DNA of 64,000 bases, taken from positions 813,440-877,439 of the forward strand of contig JAHBVV010000001.1 of NCBI GenBank assembly GCA_019637335.1. Direction: 5' to 3'. This document shows positions 6,929-15,539 of the stretch, in pieces. The stretch comes from Candidatus Hydrogenedentota bacterium. Lineage in GTDB: Bacteria; Hydrogenedentota; Hydrogenedentia; Hydrogenedentales; JAEUWI01. A program made the translations under genes and the position numbers. The first letter of the stretch is position 1. Every line of letters starts with the position of its first letter. Under the pieces are notes generated by a model. It was not told the origin of the DNA. It was given only the letters and a program-made list of their open reading frames with translations, and did no database searches.

Positions 6929-7162
6929 CTATCGCTTGAAATCTTCCGGCTCCAGCGGAGGCACGACATTAGGCGCATCAGGGTATTTCCGCTTACGCTC
7001 CTCCTGCCTCTGCATGACATCGCGAAGCATGGCCTCAAGATCGCCGCCAAATGATTCCAGGATTTCCTGGCGTGCCCGGCGAACATCCGCCACAATCGGA
7101 TCGTCAAAGAGAGGTATACTCTCCGAAGAGTTCATAGGGTGTGCAGATGATGGGGAGTTCAT
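6929..7162 (-). CDS. small partner protein downstream of PIN toxin
   Basis: A 77-residue charged protein with no membrane segment. Its middle part, DPIVADVRRARQEIL then GGDLEAMLRDVMQRQEE, resembles short proteins often encoded beside PIN-domain genes. The ATG at 7162 is supported by GGAGGAA six bases upstream, inside the toxin gene. It overlaps the toxin 3' end by 59 bases, so the two are co-transcribed. A later ATG at 7135 lacks a ribosome binding site. It could be the antitoxin, placed after the toxin, which is the less usual order. I cannot assign a DNA-binding fold from sequence alone. Confidence 0.75.
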   Translation of the reverse strand: MNSPSSAHPMNSSESIPLFDDPIVADVRRARQEILESFGGDLEAMLRDVMQRQEERKRKYPDAPNVVPPLEPEDFKR

Positions 7163-7595
7163 AGCCTTCCTCCAAAACCAATTCCGCCAGGCGGCGCAAG
7201 ATTATCGCGTTTGCGATATGCCGGCAGTTCCACGTTGCCAAGTATTCCATTCCATGCCGCGTAGCGATTGCGACATGGGCGGCATCGGTTTCCGCCTTCT
7301 TCGGAATTATACCACTTTTCAAAATATGCTTGGAGAGCTGGATCGATTCCTCATCGAATTGGAGCAATCCCATCCCCGCCATGATCGCCAGCCGCCGGCG
7401 GGCGGCGTCCGGATGTCCTCGGGCTGCCTCGTCGACAACCGGTTGGGAGACAAAAAGCCGATAGTCGTCGCGCCGTTGGTCCCACCACTGCCACGTCAAC
7501 TGCTGATGCCCCGCCACGACGAGATCGTTCGACGGGCGCGCCGCCAGATAACTGATCACGCTCGTTTCGATATATACGGATGGAAGTTCTGTCAT
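7104..7595 (-). CDS. PIN-domain (VapC-like) toxin
   Basis: A 163-residue protein of the PIN-like nuclease superfamily, expected to cleave RNA with bound metal. It opens with YIETSVISYLAARPS, where the acidic residue near the N-terminus starts the PIN active site. Further acidic residues lie in SQPVVDEA and in KKAETDAAHVAIA. It ends in an ICTPYEL segment. GAGGA lies eight bases before the ATG. The following small gene overlaps its 3' end. It lies convergent to nadA and shares an intergenic region with the CRISPR tracrRNA. Whether the pair is a working toxin-antitoxin system is inference. Confidence 0.85.
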   Translation of the reverse strand: MTELPSVYIETSVISYLAARPSNDLVVAGHQQLTWQWWDQRRDDYRLFVSQPVVDEAARGHPDAARRRLAIMAGMGLLQFDEESIQLSKHILKSGIIPKKAETDAAHVAIATRHGMEYLATWNCRHIANAIILRRLAELVLEEGYELPIICTPYELFGEYTSL

Positions 7596-7624
7596 TCGAC
7601 AGTCCTCAAATTTGCGACACGGAC

Positions 7625-7653
7625 AGTCTAGTCGCTCACCCTGCTGGGGTCAA
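7625..7653 (-). promoter_or_regulatory. promoter of the PIN toxin pair
   Basis: On the minus strand TTGACC (7653-7648), 17 bases, then TAGACT (7630-7625). It lies about 30 bases upstream of the toxin ATG. Both spacing and boxes are close to the sigma-70 consensus. Confidence 0.6.
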
Positions 7654-7713
7654 TCCCCGGGAACCGCGCGGTTTGGATGCCGGGGCCGCGATTTTTTTCA
7701 GGGGGGATCCCAC

Positions 7714-7741
7714 AAAAAAAGAGCGCCCCGCAGGGAGGCGC
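7714..7741 (-). terminator. tracrRNA terminator
   Basis: On the minus strand a GCGCC/GGCGC stem, extended to about seven pairs with a G-U pair, closes a five-base loop (7741-7723). A two-base step and seven U residues follow (7720-7714). It also shields the PIN toxin promoter from tracrRNA read-through. Confidence 0.9.
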
Positions 7742-7792
7742 CGCTACATGTCCCATGGGACAGTGGGTTCGGAGTGTTCTCCTTACTATGAA

Positions 7793-7821
7793 TTGTCAGG
7801 GAACCACCGATCAGGTATACT
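7793..7821 (+). promoter_or_regulatory. cas9: repeat-derived promoter of cas9
   Basis: TTGTCA (7793-7798), 17 bases, TATACT (7816-7821). It lies entirely inside the tracrRNA anti-repeat, read on the opposite strand. The CRISPR repeat carries the matching TTGTGG-N16-TATACT. The one extra base in the anti-repeat changes spacing from 16 to 17 and the -35 box to TTGTCA, so it should be the stronger version. The transcript would start near 7828, about 68 bases before the cas9 ATG. Confidence 0.75.
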
Positions 7822-7827
7822 GAACGG

Positions 7828-7857
7828 AGTATACGGCAGTACCAGCCACTTTGTCAA
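7828..7857 (-). promoter_or_regulatory. tracrRNA promoter
   Basis: On the minus strand a perfect TTGACA (7857-7852), 18 bases, TATACT (7833-7828). The predicted start, about seven bases on, falls at 7821, which is exactly the first base of the anti-repeat. Its -10 box lies in the early transcribed region of cas9 and forms an inverted repeat with the cas9 -10 box. Confidence 0.85.
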
Positions 7858-7895
7858 TCGAAAAAATGGGAACAAACCAAGCAGGGGGCACCCCC

Positions 7896-10800
7896 ATGTC
7901 CAACAGTGAAAAAGCACGTTATGTCTTGGGTCTGGATCTCGGCGTTTCGTCGGTAGGCTGGGCGCTGGTCCGCTTCGACGGGAAACGGCCCGTCACGATA
8001 GAAGACGCGGGCTCCCGCATCTTTGAATGCGCGATGACCAACGACAAGGGCGAGATCACGCAGGGCAAGGAGGAATCGCGGAACAAGGCCCGCCGCGACA
8101 AGCGCCTCATCCGCCGCCAGCTCGACCGGCGGGCGCGTAAACTTCGGGGCCTGGCGCTTCTCCTCAGCGACGAGGGGCTGCTCCCCGGCGCCGACCTGTC
8201 CAGTTCGCAGAAACGCCACGAGTACCTGGTCGCGCTCGACCGGGAAATCGCCCAGCGCCACCTTGCCGAAATACCCGAGGAGAACCACCACCGCTTCCAC
8301 AACACGCTCCCCTACTGGCTTCGCGCGCGCGCCCTGGAAACGCGGCTTGAGGCCGACGAATTGGGGCGGGTCTTTTACCATTTCGGGCAGCGCCGCGGCT
8401 TTCTGAGCAACCGGAAGACGGACCGCGACGATGACGAGAAGAGCGTCGTCTATGAAGGTATCTCGGAACTCGAAGAGCAAATGTCGGAGGCGCGCTGCGA
8501 GACCCTGGGCCAGTACTTTGCCAATTTAGATCCCACCGACGCCACCGGCCGACGGATCCGCAAGCACTACACACACCGGCGGATGTTCGAGGCGGAATTC
8601 GAAGCCATCTGGCGTGCGCAGCAACCCCACCACCCGGAGCTGCTTACCGAAGAATTCAGAAAAAGACTCCACCGGCGCATTTTCTTCCAGCGCAAGCTGA
8701 AATCCGCCAAGCACCTCCGCGGACTTTGCGAATACGAATGTGAAGATCGGGGCGCCGAGCGGGACCGCCCCCGGGCGCCCTGGGCGCTGGAACTGTCCCA
8801 GCGTTTCCGCTGCGCCCAGGCCGTATCCAACCTGGAATACGAACTCCCGGACGGCACCGCGCACCGGCTCACCGACGAGCAGCGGGGGCGCATGCTGGCG
8901 CACCTGAACTCGGGGAAGCACCTGAACGACGGCGGCTACCTGAGCTATGCCGAAGCGAAAAAACTTCTCGCGCCTCCGAAGGGTCTTGGCAAGGGCGTCA
9001 CCCTGAATCTGGAGCGCGACGGCGGGCGCGGGATTCGGGGGAATTCCACCGCCCAGAAGCTGTACTCGATTTTCGGCGACCGCCTCGATGAATTCACGCC
9101 CGAGGAACGCCTCCAGGCCGTGGAAGACTTGCGGAGCTACGAAAAGGAGGGCGCGCTCGCGAAGCGCGGCCGCGAGCGGTGGGGGCTCAGCGCGGAGGCC
9201 GCCAAGCGCTTCAGCCAGATCCAGCTCGAACCGGACTACGCAGGCCTGTCGCGGCAGGCCATGGAGAAACTGCTCCCGCTCATGGAGGGCGGCACGCACT
9301 ACATGAGCGCGGTCATCGAAGTATACGGCGATCAGACGGCCGACTGGCACGCGGAACGCCTCCCCTCCCTCCGCGACGCACCCTTCGGCGAGATCCGCAA
9401 TCCCACGGTCTCCCGCATCCTCACCGAGCTGCGCAAGGTGGTCAATCACGTCATCGACACCTACGGCCTGCCGGACGAGATCCGCATCGAGCTGGCGCGC
9501 GACGCCAAGCGCAGCAAGAAGGAGCGGGCGGCGATGAACAAGAAAATGCGCGATCGCGAGAAGGAGCGGGCCGGCCTCCTGAAGGAGATTCAGGACACTG
9601 TCGATTCCAATTACCAGCCCAGCCGGGACGATATGACCCGCGTGCTTCTCTGGAAAGAGTGCAACGGCAAATGCCCCTACACCGGGCGATCCATCAGCAT
9701 GGGCCAGCTCCTCGGCGCCGCGCCGCAGTTCCAGATCGAGCACATCATCCCCTTCAGCCGGAGCCTGGACAACTCCTTTCTGAACAAGACCCTCTGCTAC
9801 CACGAGACCAACTACGCCAAGGGTAACAAGACGCCCTACGAGGCCTTCTCCGACGACGAAGACTGGCCGGCCATGCTCGCCCGGGTGGCGGATTTCAAGG
9901 GCGACGCGGCCCAGGAAAAGCTGCGCCGTTTCAAGATGCGGGGAAAGGAACTGGAGACCTTCATCGAGGACTTCAAGTCCTCGCAGCTCAATGACACCCG
10001 CTACGCCTCGCGCCTGGCGATGGAGTACCTCCGCATTCTCTACGCCGGCGACTGGCGCAAGCACCTCTTCGCCAGCAAGGGCACGATCACCGCCGAACTG
10101 CGGAACGCCTGGAAGCTCAACGGCATCCTCAACGACGGCGGCGAGAAGAAATCCCGCGAGGACCACCGCCACCACGCGGTCGACGCGATCGCCATCGCCC
10201 TGGCCTCGCCGGATATGGTTCAGGTCGTCAGCCAGGCCGCACAAATGGCGGAAAAGGAGGGCCACCGCCGCTGGTGGAAGGTCATCCAGGAGCCGTGGGA
10301 CGGGTTCCTGCGGGACGCCACCGCGGCCATCGAGCGCATTGTCGTTTCGCACGCCCCCAATCGCGTGGTGCGCGGCGGCCTGCACAAGGAAACGAACTAC
10401 AGCCCCGACAAGGAAAATCCGGACGGCAAGCGTGTGGTTCACGTGCGCAAGGCCCTCGCCAATCTCACCAGCGGCGAGGTTCAGAACATCGTCGATCCCG
10501 CCGTGAAGGCTTGTGTGCTCGAAAAAATGGCCGAACTGGGCAAGAGCAACCCGGCCGAGGCCTTCAAGAGCGACGCCAACCTCCCCCGCCACAAGAACGG
10601 CAAGATTATCCGCAAGGCCCGCGTCGCCAAGACGGATCCCACCATCCCCGTGGGCAAGGACGAGCGCGTGCGCTACGTCAGCCCCGGCAACAACCACCAC
10701 ATCGAGATATTCGAGGTGGCCGACAAGAAGGGAAACCCCAAGTGGGAGGGCCGCGTTGTCAGCATGTACGAGTGCTGCCGGCGGCGGGCGAAGGGCCTGC

Positions 10801-11093
10801 CCGTCGTCGACCGCACCCACCCGGATGGCGGGAAGTTCGTGTTTTCGTTGGCAAAAGGCGATATGGTAGAAATGCTCAACGAAGTGGGCGAGCGTTCGAT
10901 CTATGTAGTTCGAAAAATGTCAAAAAACAATCAGGGTGCGATTCAGCTACTGTTCCTCGAACACACTGACGCCCGAGATGTGACCAAGATCCCGGTGAAA
11001 GGTCGCCTCAAGGTACCCAACATCATGCGGCAATCTGAATGTCGTAAAGTCACCGTCTCCCCCCTCGGAGAGGTGCGCTATGCCCGCGATTGA
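7896..11093 (+). CDS. cas9: type II-C CRISPR nuclease Cas9
   Basis: RNA-guided double-strand DNA endonuclease. The 1065-residue length is typical of compact type II-C Cas9. Domains in order: RuvC-I YVLGLDLGVSSVGWALV (D14), arginine-rich bridge helix RNKARRDKRLIRRQLDRRAR, REC lobe, RuvC-II EIRIELARDAKR (E532), HNH with QIEHIIPFSRSLDNSFLNK (H616) and NYAKGNKTPYEAF, RuvC-III EDHRHHAVDAIAIALA (H760, D763), then the PAM-interacting region. All catalytic residues are present, so it should be active. I chose ATG 7896, which has AGGGGG seven bases upstream. In-frame TTG 7851 and ATG 7866 lack one. cas1 overlaps the 3' end by 14 bases. No csn2 or cas4 is present, which fits II-C. Confidence 0.97.
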   Translation: MSNSEKARYVLGLDLGVSSVGWALVRFDGKRPVTIEDAGSRIFECAMTNDKGEITQGKEESRNKARRDKRLIRRQLDRRARKLRGLALLLSDEGLLPGADLSSSQKRHEYLVALDREIAQRHLAEIPEENHHRFHNTLPYWLRARALETRLEADELGRVFYHFGQRRGFLSNRKTDRDDDEKSVVYEGISELEEQMSEARCETLGQYFANLDPTDATGRRIRKHYTHRRMFEAEFEAIWRAQQPHHPELLTEEFRKRLHRRIFFQRKLKSAKHLRGLCEYECEDRGAERDRPRAPWALELSQRFRCAQAVSNLEYELPDGTAHRLTDEQRGRMLAHLNSGKHLNDGGYLSYAEAKKLLAPPKGLGKGVTLNLERDGGRGIRGNSTAQKLYSIFGDRLDEFTPEERLQAVEDLRSYEKEGALAKRGRERWGLSAEAAKRFSQIQLEPDYAGLSRQAMEKLLPLMEGGTHYMSAVIEVYGDQTADWHAERLPSLRDAPFGEIRNPTVSRILTELRKVVNHVIDTYGLPDEIRIELARDAKRSKKERAAMNKKMRDREKERAGLLKEIQDTVDSNYQPSRDDMTRVLLWKECNGKCPYTGRSISMGQLLGAAPQFQIEHIIPFSRSLDNSFLNKTLCYHETNYAKGNKTPYEAFSDDEDWPAMLARVADFKGDAAQEKLRRFKMRGKELETFIEDFKSSQLNDTRYASRLAMEYLRILYAGDWRKHLFASKGTITAELRNAWKLNGILNDGGEKKSREDHRHHAVDAIAIALASPDMVQVVSQAAQMAEKEGHRRWWKVIQEPWDGFLRDATAAIERIVVSHAPNRVVRGGLHKETNYSPDKENPDGKRVVHVRKALANLTSGEVQNIVDPAVKACVLEKMAELGKSNPAEAFKSDANLPRHKNGKIIRKARVAKTDPTIPVGKDERVRYVSPGNNHHIEIFEVADKKGNPKWEGRVVSMYECCRRRAKGLPVVDRTHPDGGKFVFSLAKGDMVEMLNEVGERSIYVVRKMSKNNQGAIQLLFLEHTDARDVTKIPVKGRLKVPNIMRQSECRKVTVSPLGEVRYARD

Positions 11094-11982
11094 GCGCATT
11101 ATCGACATCAGCGAGTCCGGCGCGCGCCTCCAGGTGCGTCACGAGAACCTCGTTGTATTGCGGGGCGAAGAGAAGCTCGGGAGCATGCCCCTGGAGGAGG
11201 TGGCGGTGCTGGTGGTTTCGCACCCGGCGGTCACCTACACGCAGGCGGTGCTCTCGGGCCTGATGGAGGCGGGCGGCGCCTTTGTGTGCTGCGATGCGCG
11301 GCGCATGCCCAATGGCGTGCTGCTGCCCCTTGATGGCCACCATCTCCACGCGGAGCGGCTCCAATTGCAACTGGCCGCCACGGCCCCGACGAAGAAACGG
11401 GCCTGGCAGCAGGTGGTGCAGGCCAAGGTTCGCAATCAGGCGGCCCTGTTGGAAAAACTCCGCGGGGACGACGGCGGGCTCGCCGCGCTCGCGGAGCGCG
11501 TGCAGTCAGGCGACCCGAAGAACGTGGAGGCGCAGGCGGCGCGGCGCTACTGGCCCCTGCTCTTTGCGGACGAGGGCTTCCGGCGCGATCGGGACGCCGA
11601 GGGGGCGAACGCCCTGCTCAACTATGGGTATGGCGTGCTCCGGGGCGTCGTGGGGCGCGCCATCGCGGCGGCGGGGCTGCACCCGGCGCTCGGCATTCAC
11701 CACCACAACCGCTACGACGCCTTTTCCCTGGCGGACGACCTCATGGAGCCTTACCGCCCCCTGGTGGACCACGCCGTGGCCGGCTGGGTAACCGCGCACG
11801 GCATGCTTGCCCCCGTGGATAAGGAAGCCAAGGCCGCCCTCATCGGCCCCCTCATGGGGCGCTACCCGGCCGGCGGCGAGACCCGGAGCTTCTTTGAGCT
11901 GGTCCACGCCGCCGCCGTCTCCCTCGTGCAACTCTACCAGGGCGAAAGAAAGAGCCTGGTCTTGGGCGATGTGATATACTAA
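11080..11982 (+). CDS. cas1: CRISPR spacer integrase Cas1
   Basis: Metal-dependent integrase that inserts new spacers as a complex with Cas2. The 300-residue length is normal for the type II Cas1 branch. The expected ligands are visible: glutamate in NVEAQAARRYWP, histidine in LGIHHHNRYDAF and the acidic pair in LADDLMEPYRP. The ATG lies within the cas9 3' end, with CGGAGAGG upstream, so translation is probably coupled. cas2 follows only after a 200-base gap that holds a dispersed palindromic element. Confidence 0.96.
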   Translation: MPAIERIIDISESGARLQVRHENLVVLRGEEKLGSMPLEEVAVLVVSHPAVTYTQAVLSGLMEAGGAFVCCDARRMPNGVLLPLDGHHLHAERLQLQLAATAPTKKRAWQQVVQAKVRNQAALLEKLRGDDGGLAALAERVQSGDPKNVEAQAARRYWPLLFADEGFRRDRDAEGANALLNYGYGVLRGVVGRAIAAAGLHPALGIHHHNRYDAFSLADDLMEPYRPLVDHAVAGWVTAHGMLAPVDKEAKAALIGPLMGRYPAGGETRSFFELVHAAAVSLVQLYQGERKSLVLGDVIY

Positions 11983-12002
11983 TGCGCTGAATCAGGATAA
12001 AA

Positions 12003-12151
12003 CGAAGGATCGTGGACATTCCTGTCCGCGGCAATTGGCGCGCAGGTGTGAACAGGCGCGAATACGCTGAAAAAAGGGCGTCTTGCCAGCGGGTGGCGCT
12101 TCCGCGATGGCATTGCGCTTACGCTGCCGCGGACAGGAATGTCCGCGATCC
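12003..12151. repeat. dispersed inverted-repeat element between cas1 and cas2
   Basis: Two arms in inverted orientation, 12003-12033 and 12125-12151, share GGACATTCCTGTCCGC and its complement with few differences. Each arm has its own small palindrome with a GGAA or TTCC loop; the right one is GCGGACA-GGAA-TGTCCGC (12129-12146). Closely similar arms occur at 26189-26375, and related single units at 30840-30901. The middle is not coding. The element separates cas1 from cas2, which are normally adjacent. Confidence 0.8.
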
Positions 12152-12182
12152 TCAAGAACGGCGTGTGCGAAAAGGCCAACCC

Positions 12183-12527
12183 ATGGCACAGCAACGGCTG
12201 GAACTCTCGGAGTATCGCGGCGTGTGGGTATTCGCCATGTTCGATTTGCCCGTGGTCCTCAAGGAGGACCGGAAGCGGGCCACGGAGTTCAGAAATCTGC
12301 TGTTGAAGCTGGGCTTCGAAATGATGCAGTTTTCCGTGTACGCCCGCTACTTTCCCCGGGAAGAAGCGGCGGACACCCTGCGCAAGCGCATCCGCAGGGG
12401 CCTGCCTCCGGCAGGACAGGTCCGGCTCCTGCTGGTGACCGACAAGCAATTTGGCAAAATGGAAGTTTACTTCGGGAAAAAACGAGCCGATGCTGAAGCG
12501 CCGCCCGACCAAATGCAGCTTTTTTAG
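12183..12527 (+). CDS. cas2: CRISPR-associated protein Cas2
   Basis: Dimeric core of the Cas1-Cas2 integration complex. The 114-residue protein has the ferredoxin-like Cas2 opening VFAMFDLPVVLKEDRKRATEF followed by LLLKLGFEMMQFSVYARYF, then the LLLVTDKQFGKM strand. I start at ATG 12183. The open frame continues upstream to 12012, but that part lies inside the palindromic repeat element and is not Cas2-like. No strong ribosome binding site is seen before 12183. The array starts 50 bases after the stop. Confidence 0.93.
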   Translation: MAQQRLELSEYRGVWVFAMFDLPVVLKEDRKRATEFRNLLLKLGFEMMQFSVYARYFPREEAADTLRKRIRRGLPPAGQVRLLLVTDKQFGKMEVYFGKKRADAEAPPDQMQLF

Positions 12528-12577
12528 CCGCCCGACCCAGACTAAACCTCCCTATACGAAGGTCTTAGCCCGCAGGT

Positions 12578-13999
12578 AGTATACCTGATCGGAGATTCCC
12601 CACAAACCACAGCAAGGGGTTAGTGTTTGGCACGGTTCCTGCTAGTATACCTGATCGGAGATTCCCCACAAACCACAGCTGGCCAGAGGGTCGCTTTTTG
12701 GCTCTGTAAAGTATACCTGATCGGAGATTCCCCACAAACCACAGCCGGCGCATCGCCAGGGGCCTCAAGCGCTACAGTATACCTGATCGGAGATTCCCCA
12801 CAAACCACAGCTGGCAGGCCCGCCTTAAATCCCAACGAGAGAGTATACCTGATCGGAGATTCCCCACAAACCACAGCCGCAAGGGCCGTGATCAGCGTGA
12901 TTGGCTAGAGTATACCTGATCGGAGATTCCCCACAAACCACAGCTGCACTTCACGCCTTGGGTTTCGAGGGCGGAGTATACCTGATCGGAGATTCCCCAC
13001 AAACCACAGCCAGTATCCCGCGCACGCGCGAGGGGAAGGAAGTATACCTGATCGGAGATTCCCCACAAACCACAGCTACAACATCCGTGACGCGTAAAAG
13101 TTCCGTAGTATACCTGATCGGAGATTCCCCACAAACCACAGCTGAGGTGCGACACTGCCTCACTTGCAAAAAGTATACCTGATCGGAGATTCCCCACAAA
13201 CCACAGCCCACCCCCATCACAACACCAATGGCAAGACAGTATACCTGATCGGAGATTCCCCACAAACCACAGCCAATCACTGCGTCTACAGCGCCCAGCT
13301 TCAAGTATACCTGATCGGAGATTCCCCACAAACCACAGCTGCACTCGCACACGAGGTTAAAGTCATCCAAGTATACCTGATCGGAGATTCCCCACAAACC
13401 ACAGCGACCGGTGTAGCGAATAGCTTCCGCTCCCAAGTATACCTGATCGGAGATTCCCCACAAACCACAGCAACGAGGCCATACACGAGTGGTGGGAGAA
13501 AAGTATACCTGATCGGAGATTCCCCACAAACCACAGCCTACTGTTACAGATTCCCCGCACCGATCCGAGTATACCTGATCGGAGATTCCCCACAAACCAC
13601 AGCCCTGGTCCCACGTTGGGCAGGTGGCGGAAGAGTATACCTGATCGGAGATTCCCCACAAACCACAGCCGGGCCAGAATGCAAAAATCCAGCAAAACCA
13701 GTATACCTGATCGGAGATTCCCCACAAACCACAGCGAGACGATAGCACTCAGGCTTGCGGACATTAGTATACCTGATCGGAGATTCCCCACAAACCACAG
13801 CGCAAGAATCCAAACTCCCGCGCGGACGCGGAGTATACCTGATCGGAGATTCCCCACAAACCACAGCGGCGTCGCCGGAATCCAGGGCGCCTATTGCAGT
13901 ATACCTGATCGGAGATTCCCCACAAACCACAGCATCAGTTTCATGTTCATTGTTTCACCCTTTAGTATACCTGATCGGAGATTCCCCACAAACCACAGC
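12578..13999 (-). CRISPR. type II-C CRISPR array, 22 repeats and 21 spacers
   Basis: Twenty-two copies of a 36-bp repeat occur at an exact 66-base period (first 12578-12613, last 13964-13999), giving 21 spacers of 30 bp. All repeats read identical, with no decayed end copy. On the minus strand the repeat starts GCTGTGGTTTGTGGGG and ends GATCAGGTATACT. The 5' half pairs with the tracrRNA, so crRNAs are made from the minus strand, opposite to cas9-cas1-cas2. The last six bases, TATACT, form a -10 box with TTGTGG 16 bases upstream, so each repeat can drive the next spacer, as known in Neisseria type II-C arrays. Spacer targets could not be searched here. Confidence 0.98.
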
Positions 14000-14042
14000 T
14001 CGCCGTTGCGCTGTCGCGCAACGGCTCGCTGTGGTTTGTGGG
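13985..14042. repeat. 58-bp near-perfect palindrome made from the last repeat and an inverted half-repeat
   Basis: The last 15 bases of the outermost repeat (13985-13999) are repeated in inverted orientation at 14028-14042. Between them is a second palindrome with 10-bp arms (14002-14011 and 14016-14025) and a four-base loop. The two stems are separated only by a TC step on each side. It lies at the upstream end of the array for minus-strand transcription. Confidence 0.9.
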
Positions 14043-14407
14043 AAATTGCTTTGGAGGGGTATGGGCGCGGGGTCATGGGGCGTGGCTGGTCGGCGCGGGG
14101 GACAGCGGGGAGGGCTATCGTGATTTTGCGCCTTGCGGCGCATTCTGCCGGCGGGCCGCCGGCGCTCCATAGTTGTATTGCGCCTTCGGCGGGCTCTGCC
14201 GGCGGGCCGCCGGCGCTCCATAGTTGTATTGTGCCTTCGGTGCGGGGGACTGCCGGGACGGCTATCCTACTCTCGCGCCTTCGCGCGGGAAGGGCCTTGT
14301 TTCGGGCGGCTTCTTGACGGGGGGATCGCGGTTTCGTAGAGTAACGTTATTGCGTTGTCGCCGGTGTGTGGAACGATTGGCGTTCTCGCGCCCGGCGCCG
14401 GGAGTGT
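14043..14407. repeat. intergenic region with tandem copies of a dispersed GC-rich repeat
   Basis: No supported gene. From about 14144 to 14240 there are two tandem copies of a roughly 50-base unit containing GCCGGCGGGCCGCCGGCGCT followed by CCATAGTTGTATTG. The same words recur at about 62180-62292. A further segment near 14250 (GCCGGGACGGCT) recurs near 30945. Any leader sequence of the CRISPR array would have to lie at the left edge of this region; nothing recognisable is seen. Confidence 0.65.
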
Positions 14408-14932: not shown

Positions 14933-15539
14933 CGCCTGGGGCGCCGCTGGCTGTCCGGCGCTCTTCTGGGGGCTCGCACGCTCAAGCCTTCGCGGCGGAG
15001 CCGCGGAGCTTGAACGTCGTAGATCCGCCGCAGGAGGATGGCGCCCGTGGCTCTTTTTGAAGTCTTATAGCAGCTACCGGCTGGTTAGTTTTTGGGGGTA
15101 CAGCCACCGGCTGGTTTGGGGCTGGTTGCTCCGGATGCGGGCTTGTTTGCCAGCCGGAGGCAGTCCCCTGGTTTGTTTTAGGGGTACAGCCACCGGCTGG
15201 TTTGGGGCTGGTTGCTCCGGATGGGAGCTTGTTTGCCAGCCGGATGCAGTCCCCTGGTTTGTTTTGGGGGTACAGCCACCGGCTGGTTTGGGGCTGTTTG
15301 CTCCGGACATGGGCTTGCTTGCCCGCCGGATGCAGTCCCCTGGTTTGTTTTTGGGGGTACAGCCACCGGCTGGTTTGGGGCTGTTTGCTCCGGACATGGG
15401 CTTGCTTGCCCGCCGGATGCAGTCCCCTGGCTTTTGGGGGTACAGCCACCGGCTGGTTTGGGGCTGGTTGCTCCGGATGCGGGCTTGTTTGCCAGCCGGA
15501 GGCAGTCCCCTGGGGCGCCAGCCGGATGCAGTCCCCTGG
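14933..15539. repeat. tandem array of about 86-bp units
   Basis: Five tandem units of 83-87 bp start at 15095, 15181, 15267, 15354 and 15437, each opening with GGGGTACAGCCACCGGCTGG and ending with CAGTCCCCTGG. A partial unit precedes them (from 15072) and a truncated one (15518-15540) touches the stop codon of the next gene. Within most units CCGGCTGG near the start is the inverse of CCAGCCGG near the end, so each can form a hairpin. The frames opened by the repeat are not proteins. Confidence 0.9.

Follow-up and report, generated by a model that had tools for sequence, protein, structure and literature searches.

The locus described here raises the question of whether the arm with which a tracrRNA pairs to the CRISPR repeat can, when read on the opposite strand, also be the promoter of cas9. 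An earlier note on this DNA had proposed that a single ancestral sequence does three jobs: it would promote crRNA transcription, provide the pairing part of the tracrRNA and promote cas9. The locus lies in a stretch of 64,000 nucleotides, which was analysed as a whole and is called the window below. Its features are the following:

7714..7821, minus strand: predicted tracrRNA gene (terminator scan and fold of 7821-7715; the 3' end is a stem-loop, 7742-7722, followed by a T run)
7785..7821, minus strand: tracrRNA anti-repeat (alignment and duplex energy; spans the whole 36-nt repeat, with one bulged base)
7793..7798, plus strand: -35-like TTGTCA facing cas9 (promoter scan, matrix score)
7815..7834, no strand: inverted repeat GTATACT-GAACGG-AGTATAC around both facing -10 boxes (sequence)
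7816..7821, plus strand: -10-like TATACT facing cas9 (scan, alignment and matrix score; the hexamer is identical to the end of the CRISPR repeat)
7828..7833, minus strand: -10 TATACT of the predicted tracrRNA promoter (promoter scan, matrix score)
7852..7857, minus strand: -35 TTGACA of the predicted tracrRNA promoter (promoter scan)
7896..11093, plus strand: cas9 (Pfam RuvC_III and HNH_4; TIGR01865, 676.6 bits)
11080..11982, plus strand: cas1 (Pfam Cas_Cas1)
12183..12527, plus strand: cas2 (Pfam CRISPR_Cas2; open frame from 12012, probable ATG at 12183)
12578..13999: CRISPR array of 22 identical 36-nt repeats, with the crRNA sense on the minus strand

Two facing box pairs upstream of cas9

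This is a conventional type II-C locus, with tracrRNA and cas9 divergently transcribed. It combines a small Cas9 with RuvC and HNH domains, the gene order cas9-cas1-cas2, and 36-nt repeats with a tracrRNA anti-repeat. By Pfam, the operon contains only these three genes and lacks csn2 and cas4, and the 51 bases between the end of cas2 and the array leave no space for a further gene. The probable start of cas9 is ATG 7896 (1065 aa), and the listed open frame opens earlier, at TTG 7851. A G/C inverted repeat (GGGGGCACCCCC) at 7882-7896 lies immediately 5' of this probable ATG and could mask the start codon. Rfam returned zero matches up to E = 1 in 7500-14200. Beyond the tracrRNA gene, a 163-aa open frame on the minus strand (7104-7595) has no Pfam match at E 0.001.

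In agreement with the earlier note, 7785-7821 aligns with the whole repeat through 29 Watson-Crick pairs, 5 wobbles, 2 mismatches and 1 bulge, as was also obtained by realignment. The duplex of anti-repeat and repeat has a calculated energy of -51.0 kcal/mol, compared with -71.5 kcal/mol for a perfect complement. The promoter scan likewise returned TTGTCA-N17-TATACT, aimed at cas9, on the plus strand of the anti-repeat, and the CRISPR repeat reads TTGTGG-N16-TATACT, with a -10-like end as in repeat-embedded crRNA promoters. In 7600-7950 the promoter scan gave three promoter-like sites, where 50 shuffles gave 0.1 on average. Scores were calculated with promoter matrices that approximate E. coli sigma70 consensus frequencies. 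The plus-strand box pair scores 13.6; with both strands of the 64-kb window counted, some 128,000 sites, four reach this value (7816 and 39516 on the plus strand, 7833 and 37412 on the minus strand), and the pair ranks first among the 280 plus-strand sites upstream of cas9. Between the anti-repeat and cas9, the best other plus-strand site of the window is weak (3.9, shuffle p = 0.34). The -10 half counts as non-independent evidence, because faithful anti-repeats of this repeat carry TATACT on the opposite strand; with that reservation, the rarity of such sites makes a chance origin of the full box pair unlikely. As the strongest plus-strand candidate, TTGTCA-N17-TATACT is probably the sequence that drives cas9 in this locus, with a predicted start near 7828.

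The promoter types of the host were surveyed at its tRNA genes. Its own genome yielded 46 tRNA matches; loci were obtained for 30 of these, and 29 had enough upstream sequence to be scored. The 110 bases upstream of these 29 loci reached a median score of 5.9, versus 2.7 in control stretches (p = 4e-7), and scores of at least 11 were found in 5/29 of them versus 0/290 controls. The five best of these upstream regions have boxes that resemble sigma70 types, with TTGACA, TTGATA or TTGACT, a spacing of N17-18, and TACAAT, TACTAT, TATACT or TACACT. Since TATACT is among these upstream boxes, it is a plausible -10 for this host.

The predicted tracrRNA promoter on the minus strand reads TTGACA-N18-TATACT from 7857 to 7828 and is itself one of the four top-scoring sites of the window. 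Its -10 box faces that of the plus-strand pair at a distance of 6 bases. With the start usually 7 bases from the -10 (PMC12825309, in excerpt), we infer a cas9 start near 7828 and a tracrRNA start at about 7821, where the anti-repeat begins; at this distance, the predicted cas9 mRNA and tracrRNA would therefore not overlap. The region 7600-7950 contains one promoter-like site on the minus strand upstream of the anti-repeat, and no second one was found there. A symmetric -10 shared by both directions, as in bidirectional promoters, is not present in the window, which has two boxes 6 bp apart. Derivation of the tracrRNA promoter from a decayed repeat was also considered and rejected, as the two share, by eye, GTATACT and little more.

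These features suggest a mechanism by which the anti-repeat could serve cas9. As a near copy of the repeat, its plus strand brings along the repeat's TATACT -10, and TTGTCA lies 17 bases upstream. Cas9 transcription would begin at the anti-repeat boxes and tracrRNA transcription at the facing promoter, and polymerase would not be expected on both promoters simultaneously, their -10 boxes being 6 bases apart. The promoters would be mutually exclusive, so that each initiation yields either tracrRNA or cas9 mRNA.

The anti-repeat among related loci

Relatives of the window Cas9 were collected from its phylum (16/68 genomes, its own included), from a genome-contig scan (best 80 of 410), from viral contigs (21) and from four phylum samples (38/392, 13/396, 19/387 and 35/398 genomes), for which 94 regions were fetched from 105 matching genomes. 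Removal of near-duplicates left 194 distinct loci, 130 of them with an assembled array, and 107 were counted. A counted locus has a 36-nt repeat and a minus-strand anti-repeat with a score of at least 38 that ends before the cas9 start or at most 60 bases after it; 64 array-less loci and 23 others were left uncounted, and the minus-strand layout is thus partly selected. A first-pass set of 52 loci overlaps the 107, and 54 plasmid records from tblastn were left out of the counts. The loci were divided into a core (the groups WIN, L096, L116, L142 and L107) and three outlying groups (L137-like, Lentisphaerae-type and Neisseria-type) by best query and repeat type after the per-locus table had been inspected, which favours the core figures. 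Relationships were read from a quickly built FastTree tree, whose branches are long. In 67/74 core loci, no more than 200 bases separate the anti-repeat from the cas9 start, the strand of the anti-repeat being a selection criterion.

The anti-repeat -10 hexamer is identical to that of the repeat in 63/107 loci overall. In the core loci near cas9 it is kept in 55/67, with TA at positions 31-32 in 66/67 and the last letter in 55/67. The anti-repeat also follows unusual repeats (L117 and L106); in L117, repeat and anti-repeat alike carry TAGAAC, and the hexamer tracks the repeat away from the -10 consensus, as pairing predicts. The facing tracrRNA -10 ends 6-9 bases past the anti-repeat in 61/74 core loci. 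This placement is seen in 56/63 loci with the hexamer kept versus 12/44 with it lost (p = 1e-10), and within the core in 55/59 versus 6/15 (p = 2e-5); both values are uncorrected for kinship, and the anti-repeat edge, which enters the comparison, is less certain in loci without the hexamer. Since hexamer retention follows the tracrRNA start, pairing accounts for it no less well than promoter use does. At position 36 the duplex ends and so does the -10, with its last T; this letter is unchanged in 55/67, and 10 of its 12 changes are pair-breaking transversions, not T-to-C wobbles, a pattern that pairing alone would not predict well.

Several possible signs of promoter constraint were examined and set aside. 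T-to-C wobbles in the hexamer show no significant shortage (3/144 versus 9/187, p = 0.24), and the p = 0.003 obtained for T and G pooled is confounded by base composition, so wobble avoidance was rejected as proof. Where the core anti-repeat lies over 200 bases away from cas9, the hexamer is retained in 4/7 loci, versus 55/67 at shorter distance (p = 0.14); distance from cas9 as a natural control was given up on these 7 distal core loci and a non-significant difference, tree pairs also having been examined. Hexamer-less loci have no generally better promoter nearer cas9, either overall (31 lost, 54 kept, p = 0.27) or in the core (9 lost, 50 kept, p = 0.83), and the proposal that a lost hexamer is always replaced was abandoned, replacement being found only in Lentisphaerae-type loci. 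In favour of promoter use, the anti-repeat site of core loci close to cas9 is the top-ranked upstream plus-strand site in 7/10 loci with TTG, in 10/46 with the hexamer and no TTG, and in 0/12 without the hexamer (L244 counts in both the first and the last class).

The outlying groups mostly lack the hexamer, which is kept in 1/8 Lentisphaerae-type, 2/19 L137-like and 1/6 Neisseria-type loci. The earlier note had named anti-repeats conserved without the boxes as an observation that would speak against it, and these groups provide it. The Lentisphaerae-type loci form the sister clade of the window Cas9 (support 98, quick tree). Four of their seven hexamer-less members were testable: in L072, L074 and L293 a plus-strand promoter follows at about 40 bases past the anti-repeat (shuffle p 0.005-0.025), and no such promoter was found in L284 (p = 0.30) or in L046, which keeps the hexamer (p = 0.90). 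The best plus-strand site of L069, L079 and L097 also lies about 40 bases past the anti-repeat. Such a pattern would be expected if cas9 had acquired its own promoter, in a single clade and perhaps in a single event. The Neisseria-type loci break the rule that links placement and retention, with the tracrRNA -10 placed as in the core in 5/6 yet the hexamer in 1/6, which speaks against pairing alone. L313, whose repeat equals that of N. meningitidis, carries GACAAT instead of TACAAT. Five loci (L094, L119, L254, L269 and L317) contain a stray degenerate repeat in array orientation between anti-repeat and cas9, which recalls scaRNA genes (PMC6199352, in excerpt).

For the -35, TTG at a spacing of 16-18 is found in 49/67 core repeats versus 10/67 core anti-repeats, namely those of the window, L042, L050, L085, L086, L122, L123, L240, L243 and L244, and a -35 kept throughout the family was rejected on this count. 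The highest score belongs to L086, with TTGACA-N17-TATATT. At repeat positions 9 and 10, the anti-repeat has changed from TT to AA in 41/107 and 33/107 loci, respectively, and identity to the repeat at these positions is about one third in the first-pass set. The -10 copy may be retained mainly since the anti-repeat must match the repeat, with the full promoter depending on the duplex. AA in place of the TT of TTG would form a U-U loop in the duplex of many relatives, with loss of the -35; the window has a bulged base and a single mismatch instead, by which the -35 could survive at spacing 17. Duplex shape seems to decide whether the -35 survives. G-to-A changes of the anti-repeat recur at repeat positions 1, 4 and 7 and give lower-stem G-U wobbles in 61, 45 and 58 of the 107 loci. 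Of the earlier proposal, the repeat's -10 directed toward cas9 and its place in the best plus-strand candidate upstream of cas9 held up, whereas a general rule of three jobs for one sequence is not supported.

The earlier note had also claimed that the inserted base of the anti-repeat sets the 17-base spacing. This extra base is indeed commoner in TTG loci (8/10 versus 20/57 others, p = 0.013), and in 7/10 TTG loci the repeat has a spacing of 16 and the anti-repeat one of 17. However, tree-independent pairs were too few, with mostly 3-4 for the association and 0 against (median p 0.125), and 14/19 L137-like loci have the extra base without TTG. The spacing base is therefore unconfirmed as a selected promoter feature. 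Among the ten TTG loci, the anti-repeat -35 is better than that of the repeat just in the window and L244.

Promoter use and the demands of pairing

Taken together, we lean toward the view that the plus-strand box pair of the window is a cas9 promoter facing the tracrRNA promoter, and that its -10 copy is kept mainly by repeat matching. The main rival, which we regard as possible but doubtful, holds that the boxes are a passive by-product of complementing a promoter-bearing repeat, that TTGTCA is there by chance, and that cas9 has its promoter at another site or is only weakly transcribed. Much of the comparison would fit such a by-product: the hexamer goes with the repeat and with the position of the tracrRNA start, TTG is missing from 57/67 core anti-repeats, and in the three outlying groups the minus-strand anti-repeat in front of cas9 mostly has no -10. 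In Group B Streptococcus, moreover, the cas promoters lie outside the anti-repeat (PMC12216829, in excerpt). It accounts less readily for the window, where the anti-repeat site holds the first rank and no other convincing plus-strand site precedes cas9, and for the transversions at position 36.

Beyond the window, the reading of the box pair as a cas9 promoter could be extended to part of a type II-C clade. One repeat-derived sequence would then be the crRNA promoter in the array, its mirrored copy would be both tracrRNA pairing arm and cas9 promoter, and the facing tracrRNA promoter would make an either/or polymerase switch whose geometry is kept across phyla; we offer this only tentatively and think it rather unlikely. 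A much stronger generalization, in which anti-repeat and cas9 promoter form one co-evolving element across type II-C and the bulge is kept for the 17-base spacing, appears very improbable. It can draw on the excess of the extra base in TTG loci and on the shift of spacing, but the tree-independent pairs, the L137-like loci with the extra base and no TTG, and a -35 improved over the repeat in two of ten loci all speak against it.

A further expectation, that a mutation in guide pairing would also alter cas9 expression, applies more narrowly than proposed. In C. cellulolyticum, crRNAs contain 24-28 nt of repeat (PMC7038990, in excerpt); by these lengths, the -10 would pair with a part of the repeat that is lacking in mature crRNA.

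Known systems and consequences

Repeat-embedded promoters are already known (PMC3656092 and PMC7038990, both in excerpt). In C. jejuni, the type II-C repeats contain a promoter and each crRNA starts within the spacer (PMC3656092); in C. cellulolyticum, tracrRNA precedes the cas genes, and the array is read in the direction opposite to theirs (PMC7038990); and Neisseria meningitidis is cited there for repeat-embedded promoters as well. As in the window, the repeats of these three species end in a -10-like sequence. In contrast to the reading favoured here, the promoter is placed in the array repeats of C. jejuni and C. cellulolyticum, and the excerpts of PMC3656092 and PMC7038990 do not propose that an anti-repeat copy drives cas9.

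Streptococcus resembles the window in having a cas9 promoter in or beside the tracrRNA gene, with regulation that links both (PMC11417352 and PMC12216829, in excerpt). P2cas of Group B Streptococcus, however, lies at the tracrRNA 3' end (PMC12216829), whereas the window boxes lie in the anti-repeat. In tracr-L autoregulation, a second upstream promoter gives a long tracrRNA, with which Cas9 is guided to the cas promoter and represses P1cas (PMC11417352), whereas no second minus-strand promoter was found upstream of the window's anti-repeat in 7600-7950. Bidirectional promoters of E. coli are similar in that opposed starts share one polymerase footprint and one direction blocks the other (PMC12825309, in excerpt). 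They differ in sharing a -10, with starts mostly 18 and also 10 or 23 bp apart, whereas the window has separate -10 boxes across 6 bp and predicted starts 7 bp apart. For Flavobacterium psychrophilum, the cas9 promoter was placed in an element that has inserted between these two genes, tracrRNA and cas9 (PMC10309648, in excerpt), and cas9 of N. meningitidis has its own predicted boxes (PMC13431127, in excerpt). A cas9 promoter within the anti-repeat is absent from the excerpts of PMC10281378, PMC5006608 and PMC6199352, and the literature searched, to which most subscription papers did not belong, gave no report of one.

If the boxes are used, levels of cas9 and tracrRNA would be coupled through promoter competition, with no regulator. 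Part of the anti-repeat would be constrained by two molecules, which bears on the co-evolution of tracrRNA and repeat, and there would be a concrete place to search for cas9 promoters in II-C systems lacking annotated ones. If they are unused, the lesson would be one of caution, since the anti-repeat of a promoter-bearing repeat tends to resemble a promoter. The facing-promoter geometry is the part that most deserves a bench test.

Two further observations concern the sequence to the right of the array. At 15090-15466, a 35-base unit occurs five times with CRISPR-like spacing, overlapping a listed open frame; a CRISPR array is improbable there. At 14028-14042, 28 bases past the last repeat, the first 15 bases of the repeat recur exactly in inverted orientation, and among 130 arrays, 92 of them with at least 100 bases of right flank, that of the window is the sole case with such a partial copy on the right. 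This copy sits at the crRNA-upstream end of the array, where leader RNA could fold onto the first repeat.
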